DNA of 35,518 nucleotides from Candidatus Methanimicrococcus labiotermitis (GTDB taxonomy: Archaea > Halobacteriota > Methanosarcinia > Methanosarcinales > Methanosarcinaceae). This document shows, in pieces, positions 1,026 through 5,361 of this stretch (positions within the stretch are counted from its first letter, which is position 1; every line of letters begins with the position of its first letter). The notes beneath the pieces were generated by a model. It made no database searches, was not told where the DNA came from, and worked only from the letters and a program-made list of their open reading frames with translations. The translations under genes and the position numbers were made by a program. Location of the stretch: positions 1 through 35,518 of the forward strand of contig WRCE01000020.1 in assembly GCA_009784005.1 (NCBI GenBank), in the 5' to 3' direction.

Positions 1026-2636
1026 TCATTTCCGGTTTTCTTTTGCCGCTTTGACCAATTCTGTGAAAAGAGGTTCCGCTCTTTGCGGTCTGGATTTGAA
1101 TTGGGGATGGTACAGGGTGCCGATGAAGAATTTCTTTTCGGGCAATTCAACGATTTGTTTCATGCCGTTGATCTCACCGGAAAAGACCATGCCTTTTTCT
1201 TCGAGAATTTTGACGTAATCATTATTGATTTCGTATCTGTTTCTGAATCTTTCGGAAATGGCGTCTCTGCCGTAAATCATTTTGGCCAACGTGTCGTCTT
1301 TGATCGCGACTTCGTATTCGCCGACTTTCATGACGCCTCTGAATCCTGAAATGTCTAATTTTTTGGATGTGACGTCAACGACGGGATACTCAGTCTCCAT
1401 GTCCAGTTCTGTCGTGTTGGCGCCGTTCAGACCGGCAACGTTCTGCGCGAAGTCAATCACCGCTGCCTGCATACCGAATCCGATTCCGAGGAACGGGATG
1501 TCGTTTTCGCGGGCAAACTTCGCCGTTTGAATCATGCCTTTCGCGCCTCTTTCGCCAAACGCGCCGGGGATGATAATGCCGTCGTAGTTTTTCAGATTTT
1601 CCAAAACGGAGACGTCATCCTCGATTTTTTCCGAACTGACCAAAACCGCGGTGGCCTTAATGCCGGCGGCGGTTGAGCCGTGTTTGACGGCTTCAAAAAC
1701 ACTGATGTAAGAGTCGGGCAATTCTGTGTATTTGCCGACGATTGCAAGACGAACAGCTTCCGAATCCGGCGTAGCCGCCACAATCTTCATTTTGTCAACC
1801 ATTTCGTCCCAGCCCGATTCGGGCGGATTTTCGGGAGGCTGAAGGTTAAGCGCCTTGATCAAATGGTCCGTCAAACCCTGACTGTCAATGATTTTCGGAA
1901 CTTCATATAATATTTTGACGTCGTAAGCGCTGATCACGCACTCTTCGGGGACGTCGCAGAAAAGAGAGATTTTTTCTTTCGTTTCCTTTTTCAAAGGGAA
2001 AGAAGACCGGCCGATGATATAATCGGGAGACAAACCGAGCGTTCTCATTTCTCTGACGGAGTGCTGCGTCGGTTTTGTTTTTTGCTCGCCCTGCGTGTCG
2101 TCAAAGAACAATGTCACGTGAACGAATTTCATATTGCCCTGGGGCTCTTCGTTCCTCATTTGGCGAATAGCTTCCATGTAAAACATACTTTCGTAGTCGC
2201 CGACCGTGCCGCCGATTTCAATCAGGCAAACATCGGCGCCGCTTCTTTTCGCGGCTGTTCTGAGTTTATTTTTGATTTCGTTTGTAATGTGAGGAATGAT
2301 TTGAACGGTTTTGCCGAGGAATTCGCCGCGGCGCTCGCGTTCAAGAACAGTGGAATAAACGTTGCCGGTTGTGATATCGTGGTCCGCCGTTAAATCGACG
2401 TCCAAAAAGCGTTCATAATTCCCAAGATCCAAATCGACTTCGCCGCCGTCGTTTAGGACACAGATTTCACCGTGCTGGAGCGGCGTCATGATGCCGGCGT
2501 TGATATTCAGATACGGGTCGATTTTGATGGCCGTAACTTTGTAGCCTCTGTTTTTCAGGTTTCTTCCAATCGACGCTGTCGTGATGCCTTTTCCAAGACC
2601 GCTGATCACTCCGCCCGTTACGATAATATATTTCAT
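1026..2636 (-). CDS. pyrG: CTP synthase with degenerate glutaminase active site
   Basis: Makes CTP from UTP and ATP using ammonia, normally released from glutamine by the C-terminal class I amidotransferase domain. The protein has 536 residues, usual for the family. The synthase half (about 1-265) is well conserved: [12 protein letters not shown] at 6-17, LDLGNYERF at 69-77, EIGGTVGD at 140-147 and [10 protein letters not shown] at 184-193. In the amidotransferase half, the nucleophile motif normally written GICLGMQ reads GIGFGMQ (Gly386). The HPE motif reads HPQ (His510, Gln512). The oxyanion segment PGGFG reads PGAFG (357-361). Cys and Glu of the triad are therefore both absent. I infer an ammonia-dependent enzyme. 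A second pyrG elsewhere is possible. Transcribed alone, facing nth. Confidence 0.95.
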
Positions 2637-3176: not shown

Positions 3177-3330
3177 GTTGGAAAATAAGGGATGACGGAA
3201 GGTATCGGAAATGAACAAAAGCAAATTCATCCAAAGAATTCTCTTGCTTTTATTGACGCTTATTCTTATTCTGACACTGCTGCCGGGCTTCATGCCGGCG
3301 GCGTTGGCGGCAGAGTACAATGCAGCGAGT
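3177..3330 (+). repeat. Duplicated 5' segment, copy 1 (copy 2 at 5385-5540)
   Basis: The 34 bases before the start codon and the signal-peptide coding part of the gene at 3211 are repeated almost exactly before and within the gene at 5419. The shared leader includes GTTGGAAAATAAGGGATGAC and an SD-like GGAAGGT or GAGGGTA. The duplication therefore included the translation signals. Confidence 0.85.
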
Positions 3331-5361
3331 CAGCAAGATATGATTGATGCTCTCAACGCGGGTGATGCCGTAAAAATTACAACGGCTTCCGATTTTACGA
3401 TAACCGGCAGTATCACCATTCCTAACAACTGCACGTTTGAAATCGGACACGCGATTATCATTAATGGCAGCGACAGTCTTGCTATCAACAACGGCAGTAT
3501 TGTCATCAATAGCGATGGCGGCATTTTTCTTAATAACGGCAGCAGGGTTGTCTGCGGCGGCATGATTGCCATCAATAGCGGCGGCATTATTGATATTGGT
3601 AACAGTAGTACGGTTACAAATGGCGGTACAATTGTTAACAACAACGGCGGCATTATTTCCAACAATGGACGAATTGACAACACCGGCACGATTACCAACG
3701 GCGGCATTATTTCCAATGGTGAACGAATTGACAACACAGGCACGATTACCAACGGCGGCATTATTTCCAATGGTGGACGGATTGACAACACAGGCACGAT
3801 TACCAACGACAACCAAATTCTCAACTTCGGTACGATTACCAATGGCGACACAGATGACAACGGCGGCAGTATTATCAACCATCGCGGCAGCACGATTGAC
3901 AACAGCGGCATGATTCACAACCATCACAGAAGCACGATTGACACCAGCGGCATGATTACCAACAGCGGAACGATTAGCAATTCCTATTGGATTGACAACT
4001 GCGGCGTGATTACCAACAACAACGGCGGCGCGTTTAATAACAACGGCGGCGGAACGTTTACTAACTACAACAGCGGCACGATTATCAACAACAAAGACTG
4101 CACGATTGCCAACTACGGCAGGATCCTCAACGGCGACACAACTCACAATGTCAACAGCACGATTGATAACAGCGGCACGATTATCAGCCACAGCGTCAGT
4201 AATATTTTCAATATCGGCAACGGTGTGATCACGAACAACAACGGCGGAATGATTACAAACGCCGGTATGATTCACAGCGATGGAACGGTTACCAACCGCG
4301 AAAATGGAAGGATTGACAACAGAGGCGGGATTAACAGCAGCGGCACGTTTGTCAATGACGGAAGGATTAACAACTATGGACATATCGGCAACGATGGCCT
4401 GTTTGCCAACAACGGAAAATTTGCCAGCAACGGTACGATTTACAACAACGAAAGCGGCATATTTACAGGTTTTTCGCCCACAGGCAGCGGTTCTATTCAC
4501 AACTCCGGAACATTCACAGTCACTGACGACAGAACATCTTTTGAACGCTTGAACACGATCGATTTTCTCAAAATAATAGGGGGATTGTTGCTGGCGGTGG
4601 CAGTGATTGCAGCTGTTTTCATCCGTCTTCGGAATAATACTGAAATCAAAATATCAAAGAAGCGGCACATAATACCTTTAATAGAATGTTTTATTCTGTC
4701 ATATCTATTGTCAGGTATTGTCGTTACTTATACACAGATCGGAATAGCCAATGAGTTCCTCACCCATCGAGAGGTGATAATAGAATTAATACCACTCATC
4801 TTGTGCATCACAGGTCTTATTTTTCATATTATTCTTTATTCTGTTCTGAAGAAAAAATATAATTTTGAAATGAGGTTTTTTCTTTACGGTGTCGGGTTTA
4901 CAGCATGTTGTATTGCATTCTTATGCCATACTCTGGGAGGACTTTATGGTCCATATGGGCCGTTTAGTCCATATAGTCCATATGGGCCGTATGAGCGTGT
5001 AAATATTATAGAAAACCTAAAGTTTTTGTTTTTTTACATACTTCCGTTTACCACATTCTATTATTCGTATGCAACCTTACTTCAAAATAAGGAAAAAGAG
5101 ATTGGCAGAGTTACTTTATGCTTAACTGCCATAACTGTTCTGTCTTTTGCAGTTTTAATAATTCTTGGAACAATTAATTATCAGAATCCGTATATAGGCA
5201 TCATCCCAATTCTTTTTGGATTGTATCTTGCTTATTGTTTAATTTATAAGAAAGGTATGCTCAGTCTTCGGCAAATTGCATGGGGTTCATTTATTTTGAC
5301 ATGTACTATGTTATTTTATGGTGCTGCATCAAATTTAATATTTTTTATAACACATTTTTAA
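3211..5361 (+). CDS. Secreted Asn/Gly-rich repeat (adhesin-like) protein fused to polytopic membrane domain
   Basis: 716 residues. Residues 1-34 form a signal peptide (MNKSKF, a long Leu/Ile core, then an ALAA cleavage-type end). Residues about 60-430 are short repeats of the type GTITNNGGIISN, with regular Ile/Val and Asn turns, as in parallel beta-helix adhesins. There are many N-X-S/T sequons. After the motif FLKIIGG (about 451) come one membrane segment and seven more hydrophobic segments up to residue 716. A loop holds repeats of GPYGP and SPYSP. The ectodomain would face outside, anchored by the membrane part. Start chosen at the ATG with SD-like GGAAGGT, conserved in the paralogue at 5419. 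Function unknown; surface adhesion is an inference from architecture. Confidence 0.8.
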   Translation: MNKSKFIQRILLLLLTLILILTLLPGFMPAALAAEYNAASQQDMIDALNAGDAVKITTASDFTITGSITIPNNCTFEIGHAIIINGSDSLAINNGSIVINSDGGIFLNNGSRVVCGGMIAINSGGIIDIGNSSTVTNGGTIVNNNGGIISNNGRIDNTGTITNGGIISNGERIDNTGTITNGGIISNGGRIDNTGTITNDNQILNFGTITNGDTDDNGGSIINHRGSTIDNSGMIHNHHRSTIDTSGMITNSGTISNSYWIDNCGVITNNNGGAFNNNGGGTFTNYNSGTIINNKDCTIANYGRILNGDTTHNVNSTIDNSGTIISHSVSNIFNIGNGVITNNNGGMITNAGMIHSDGTVTNRENGRIDNRGGINSSGTFVNDGRINNYGHIGNDGLFANNGKFASNGTIYNNESGIFTGFSPTGSGSIHNSGTFTVTDDRTSFERLNTIDFLKIIGGLLLAVAVIAAVFIRLRNNTEIKISKKRHIIPLIECFILSYLLSGIVVTYTQIGIANEFLTHREVIIELIPLILCITGLIFHIILYSVLKKKYNFEMRFFLYGVGFTACCIAFLCHTLGGLYGPYGPFSPYSPYGPYERVNIIENLKFLFFYILPFTTFYYSYATLLQNKEKEIGRVTLCLTAITVLSFAVLIILGTINYQNPYIGIIPILFGLYLAYCLIYKKGMLSLRQIAWGSFILTCTMLFYGAASNLIFFITHF
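3673..3808 (+). repeat. 54-base tandem repeat within the adhesin-like gene
   Basis: Units start at 3673, 3727 and 3781 (the last partial) and are almost identical. Each encodes 18 residues around IDNTGTITNGGIISNG. This is a recent expansion of one beta-helix-like turn pattern. Confidence 0.85.

Follow-up and report, generated by a model that had tools for sequence, protein, structure and literature searches.

Glutamine is a near-universal nitrogen carrier in biosynthesis, and the class-I amidotransferases with their NH3 tunnels are textbook examples of substrate channelling. In vitro, CPS, GMP synthetase, IGP synthase and FGAM synthetase can also run on NH3 through their large or synthetase subunits, and vertebrate carbamoyl-phosphate synthetase I, which has a fused class-I glutaminase domain without the Cys, uses free ammonia. 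Free NH3 is also a substrate of normal CTP synthase (PMC9138612). In NAD synthetases, NH3 and glutamine use alternate in evolution via gain or loss of a nitrilase-like domain (PMC3376133), while PurF' of some archaea, an amidotransferase homologue lacking the catalytic Cys, has been proposed to be NH3-dependent (PMC3261824).

In this report, we focused on PyrG, the CTP synthase of Candidatus Methanimicrococcus labiotermitis, and on the fate of glutamine-using enzymes in its relatives. Methanimicrococcus are Methanosarcinaceae of arthropod and insect guts. When compared to glutamine-hydrolysing PyrG (TIGR00337; E. coli 1s1m and 8i9o; Sulfolobus 3nva), the protein has the same two domains, synthase residues and fold, and is likewise the sole CTP synthase, but the genus has lost the Cys, the triad Glu, Gly352, the HRH motif and the GTP wing. 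It shares a fused Cys-less domain with vertebrate carbamoyl-phosphate synthetase I but catalyses a different reaction, and the loss is here one of many changes per genome. Unlike in NAD synthetases, the alteration involves point mutation of a class-I domain together with loss of many other glutaminases, and unlike PurF', which is a class-II homologue in single species, it affects the sole CTP synthase of an entire genus.

PyrG and its altered glutaminase site

The window analysed here, i.e., the whole stretch of 35,518 nucleotides, is one contig of a 1.69-Mb genome that is 93% complete with no contamination. The pyrG features in it are as follows.

ORF 1026-2636, feature 1029..2636, minus strand: PyrG, CTP synthase, 536 aa (translation)
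1827..2636, minus strand: synthase (amidoligase) domain, residues 1 to about 270 (profile match and E. coli residue mapping)
1029..1760, minus strand: class-I glutaminase (GATase) domain, residues about 293-536, with fold retained and catalytic site gone (PF00117, AlphaFold, Foldseek)
1560..1562, minus strand: Ala359 codon, replacing Gly352 (E. coli) at the joint between oxyanion strand and lid L11 (alignment and mapping; role from PMC9138612)
1479..1481, minus strand: Gly386 codon, replacing the Cys nucleophile (E. coli C379; translation, alignment and E. coli mapping)
1326..1355, minus strand: degenerate GTP-binding wing L13, residues 428-437 (mapping and pLDDT)
1239..1247, minus strand: FRN, residues 464-466, replacing HRH beside the glutamine-binding Arg (alignment and mapping; R467 retained)
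1107..1109, minus strand: His510 codon, triad His retained (E. coli H515; E. coli mapping)
1101..1103, minus strand: Gln512 codon, replacing the triad Glu (E. coli E517; translation, alignment and E. coli mapping)

PyrG belongs to the CTP synthase family, with a score of 682.9 bits against TIGR00337 (NCBIfam cut-off 462.75) and the full-length two-domain architecture of the family (383.9 bits for PF06418 and 90.4 bits for PF00117), and it scores well below the cut-off of 260 for NF004836, the CTP synthase C-terminal region-related (seleno)protein (133.8 bits). The synthase half had been predicted to keep its motifs, and indeed all the synthase residues tested by E. coli mapping are present, including the P-loop Lys, the Mg residues D72/E140, the UTP residues K187/K223 and the CTP residues. 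The NH3 gate P54/H57 is unchanged in Methanimicrococcus, the exceptions in this half being V60, which is Ile (a conservative change), and I148, which is Tyr (all E. coli numbering). The AlphaFold model, with a mean pLDDT of 89.3, aligns over its full length with E. coli and Sulfolobus CTP synthases (Foldseek; TM about 0.93), and its sole segment with pLDDT <50 is residues 426-434 in the GTP-binding wing.

The glutaminase half departs from the glutamine-hydrolysing class in that the Cys nucleophile is missing and, although the triad His is kept, the triad Glu is lost. Both substitutions, Gly386 and Gln512, were claimed in the original prediction, and alignment and E. coli mapping agree on them (GIGFGMQ starts at residue 384 and HPQF at residue 510). 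The prediction was also right that PGGFG reads PGAFG (residues 357-361) but not that an oxyanion residue is affected, because the oxyanion Gly, G351 in E. coli, persists as Gly358 and it is G352 that has changed. Substitution of this Gly352, at the joint with lid L11, by Pro has been reported to impair glutaminase activation (PMC9138612). Further changes had gone unnoticed: HRHRYE has become FRNRYE, the wing carries D434G/L435F/G436R/T438V/R440K (E. coli numbering), and lid residue E359 is K, D or S in the genus. In CTP synthase, GTP normally both stimulates the hydrolysis of glutamine and closes off the NH3 tunnel (PMC9138612), so the decay of wing and lid fits a loss of glutamine use. By contrast, E410 and R467, which bind glutamine, are retained (E. 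coli mapping), so glutamine might still bind PyrG, which counts against such a loss.

PyrG across the genus and other archaea

The changes in PyrG are a property of the genus. Our set comprised six Methanimicrococcus species genomes, most of them incomplete MAGs, i.e., the window genome and five congeners including the isolate M. blatticola DSM 13328. Gly, Gln and Ala occupy the three sites in all six species, M. blatticola DSM 13328 included, and so do FRNRYE and an altered MRLG motif. In an alignment of the kind proposed with the original prediction, here extended to about 100 PyrG rows from other archaea (with some loci represented twice), positions 359, 386 and 512 show a genus-specific A/G/Q versus a near-invariant G/C/E in other archaea. 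Specifically, the PGGFG column has G in 100 other rows and D in 1, the Cys column has C in 100 and S in 1, and the Glu column has E in 100/100, while the genus rows are all A, G and Q, respectively.

The alignment revealed one other dead archaeal PyrG, in Met33H (L063, CP061209.1), with Cys replaced by Ser, His replaced by Tyr, and PGDDG. In the PyrG tree, these are two separate losses, hence independently derived dead triads, and the two cases differ in that in the complete 0.99-Mb Met33H genome, glutamine synthetase looks intact and several further class-I GATases are retained. A literature search on Met33H found nothing. Methanimicrococcus is monophyletic in this tree (100/100) and is sister to a genus, g7, that is likely Methanolapillus (G026, on a long branch). 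In g7, the PyrG triad is intact, and changes are seen in the lid, the wing and the L4 loop (Leu109 is Arg).

Selection estimates, which are rough because dS is near 1, give Methanimicrococcus dN/dS values of 0.05 (synthase half) and 0.09 (GATase half), compared with 0.035 and 0.05 in Methanosarcina. The ratio of amino-acid change between the two halves is similar in both (1.76 versus 1.98, respectively). On these estimates, both halves of PyrG are under strong purifying selection and the protein is not decaying.

The GATase domain may have been kept because it became a regulatory module, sensing for example glutamine or GTP without hydrolysing glutamine, while catalysis is NH3-dependent. A GATase dN/dS of 0.09, the retention of E410 and R467, and a fold predicted with high confidence are what would be expected of such a module, but lid L11 and the GTP wing are both divergent, the wing is predicted to be disordered, and stability or tetramer contacts alone may explain the domain, which makes this explanation possible but rather unlikely. 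It is much more doubtful that NH3 from glutamine is supplied in trans by another protein or that an unusual residue stands in for the Cys. We found no support for either apart from the persistence of the glutamine-binding residues; searches of the genus turned up no further class-I GATase whose nucleophile is intact, Gly is incapable of acting as a nucleophile, and the Glu is lost as well. The alternative in the original prediction, two diverged paralogues of which the other is normal, can practically be discarded, as a search for a second pyrG gave a single PyrG per genome, with one CTP_synth_N match in the window genome (PF06418 profile search) and likewise one PyrG per congener (split over two contigs in one of them). 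A sequencing error or an unselected, decaying gene is hardly conceivable given that the same substitutions occur in six independent assemblies, one of them from an isolate, and that dN/dS in the synthase half is 0.05.

Other glutamine-using sites and their partners

While PyrG is a variant of a known enzyme, it is the visible corner of a lineage-wide dismantling of glutamine use that has apparently gone unreported. Our literature search found no earlier report of such dismantling, and the main text of genome papers on the group does not mention glutamine. Class-I GATase domain matches in each Methanimicrococcus genome are limited to the dead PyrG, plus a weak CobQ match in three genomes. The other Methanosarcinaceae tested have 11 per complete genome, and 8 in a genome that is 76% complete. 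To test for gene absence, we searched the entire M. blatticola genome (1.87 Mb, overlaps included) with Methanosarcina and E. coli proteins as queries, and also ran family searches. In that whole genome, there is no orthologue of CarA, GuaAa, HisH, PurQ, TrpG/PabA or PdxT, nor of GlmS, AsnB, AsnA or GltB. The GlmS query matched only PurF, and the PdxT query gave a weak 21-bit match to a region of a CobB-type protein.

The synthetase partners are still there. M. blatticola has CarB, GuaAb, HisF, HisA, HisG, HisD, PurL, PurF, PurM, PurN, PyrB and PyrI; CarB, GuaAb, HisF and PurL are found in all six genus genomes and in G026 (concatenated query), and PurQ is missing from all seven. In the window genome, CarB, the C-terminal part of GuaA, HisF and PurL exceed their NCBIfam cut-offs. 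In Methanosarcina, carA directly adjoins carB, and no carA lies beside carB in the window genome or g7. As CarA is found in 285 of the 296 Halobacteriota genomes that are at least 90% complete, its absence is uncommon, though not unique. Near-complete Halobacteriota without a CarA match include G116, G180, G184, G188, G193, G198 and G203 (family f8), and G302, G346 and G348 (f14). These gene absences and retained partners, like the residue changes and the domain constraint in PyrG, are direct readings of the sequences.

Glutamine-using proteins that persist have mostly lost their active sites. The loci concerned are as follows (coordinates within the named contigs).

M. blatticola L177:4307-5770: CfbB, coenzyme F430 synthesis (NCBIfam equivalog)
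Window genome G000:C30:2152-3657 (L361) and M. blatticola L211:15701-17080: GatA without its triad; the GatB gene adjoins in M. blatticola
Window genome G000:C3:4562-5887 (L117) and M. blatticola L203:5207-6514: glutamine synthetase homologue

In Methanimicrococcus, the nucleophile motif of CobQ has changed from GICGG to GIGEG or GVGEG and that of the CobB/CbiA paralogue from AECGG to GEGAG (Cys to Gly in both), and that of CfbB has changed from AECGG to AESAG (Cys to Ser). M. blatticola L201 is the CobB/CbiA paralogue of CfbB (NCBIfam), the Cys being lost in both, and CfbB was not found in the assembly of the window genome. In GatA, which belongs to the amidase family and is unrelated to class I, the Lys is replaced by Ser and both the cis-Ser and the nucleophile Ser are lost, so that the Ser-cisSer-Lys triad is gone. 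The window genome and M. blatticola each have a single glutamine synthetase homologue. Its residues E129, E131, E212, E220, H269 and R359 are changed in all six species, five of the six metal ligands (E129, E131, E212, E220, H269, E357) are replaced in the window genome and M. blatticola, and the window-genome protein falls outside type I GlnA (260.7 bits against TIGR00653, cut-off 429.15). The homologue in g7 (G027) also lacks most of these residues. The gene for this pseudo-glutamine synthetase without metal ligands has been conserved as an open frame across the six species.

In the genus, glutaminase residues survive only in PurF and GatD. PurF retains its N-terminal Cys in 6/6 genomes, though its HVRYST motif reads HVRNAT, and GatD retains its catalytic residues in 6/6, so the genus probably still makes some use of glutamine (or asparagine). 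Four of the six genus genomes and both g7 genomes encode an NADP glutamate dehydrogenase of bacterial type, which shares 56-60% identity with E. coli GdhA. We do not present it as a gain in a family without such an enzyme, because other Methanosarcinaceae carry different ELFV dehydrogenases, which are only distantly related to it.

The sister genus gives an indication of the order of events. g7 lacks the stand-alone glutaminase subunits, and its CobQ, CobB, CfbB and GatA already carry dead sites, but its PyrG triad is intact, which points to the PyrG domain as the last class-I site to die. Since G026 is 80% complete, single absences there are uncertain, although their sum is not. The simplest scenario would be that the common ancestor had already lost most glutaminases, with the PyrG domain dying later on the Methanimicrococcus stem. 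GATase matches on two contigs of G027 (C8 and C94), which carry a fused long PurL with GATase_5 and a HisH-like gene, were set aside as probable bacterial contamination, given that this PurL is of bacterial type and that many reading frames are open there, as is seen in high-G+C DNA.

A proposed switch from glutamine to ammonia

We consider it very likely that Methanimicrococcus PyrG is an ammonia-only CTP synthase, within a lineage-wide replacement of glutamine by ammonia. The purely ammonia-dependent enzyme of the original prediction thus gains support from the single PyrG, the intact synthase half, purifying selection and the system-wide loss. The synthase half would phosphorylate UTP at O4, and free cytoplasmic NH3, rather than NH3 channelled from glutamine, would displace the phosphate to yield CTP. 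The C-terminal domain would be a glutaminase that has lost catalysis but still folds, retained for structural and perhaps regulatory reasons. In the rest of the system, class-I glutaminase subunits that were separable have disappeared while their synthetase partners stayed, class-I domains that could not be removed because they are fused have been inactivated at the nucleophile, and GatA and the glutamine synthetase homologue have lost their active sites. Asp-tRNA(Asn) amidation with a triad-less GatA may use ammonia, and glutamate would probably come from the bacterial-type NADP glutamate dehydrogenase.

We thus infer a physiological switch in which glutaminase activity has been lost and NH3 is used instead, and the overall pattern suggests that free ammonia now supplies the nitrogen for nucleotides, histidine and cofactors in this lineage. 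The broadest form of this proposal, to which we lean with some reservation, is that intestinal Methanosarcinaceae gave up glutamine as a nitrogen carrier. They would have no working glutamine synthetase, class-I glutaminase site or GatA; pyrimidine, purine, histidine, corrinoid, F430 and Asn-tRNA amidations would run on free ammonia; and the fused domain of PyrG would have been the last class-I step.

An ammonia-based metabolism is plausible because NH3 is accepted by CTP synthases and other synthetase subunits, and in view of the NH4Cl in the culture medium and the reported needs of M. hongohii. Acid-hydrolysed casein is glutamine-free. The medium in which isolates of the genus grow contains 0.3 g/l NH4Cl, and the needs of the M. 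hongohii isolate are reported to be acetate and Casamino acids only, although the routine medium also contains peptone (PMC11362671). Counting against an ammonia-only PyrG, Amt was detected in four of the six genus genomes and lies near pyrG in only two. In these two (G001:C1:158107-162942 and G004:C13:14857-19616), the ammonium transporter gene is divergent and about 2 kb from pyrG. We rejected this linkage as a general rule, as it is confined to G001 and G004 and absent at the window locus.

If true, our proposal would have several implications. First, a natural lineage would show when channelling is dispensable, the apparent order being most other sites first and the fused PyrG last. Second, mechanistic studies would gain naturally evolved, NH3-only forms of several enzymes. 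Third, the switch would account in part for how these methanogens, for which a cultured isolate exists, adapted to the gut.

Finally, two neighbours of pyrG in the window deserve a brief description. Upstream of pyrG, a 716-aa ORF (3211-5361, plus strand) has no Pfam match. At the start of the window, an ORF on the plus strand (1-290, running into 290-994) encodes endonuclease III with an Ala/Lys/Pro/Thr-rich, repetitive, histone H1-like tail in frame ahead of it, and lysine-rich tails are also found on the endonuclease III homologues of M. blatticola and L012.
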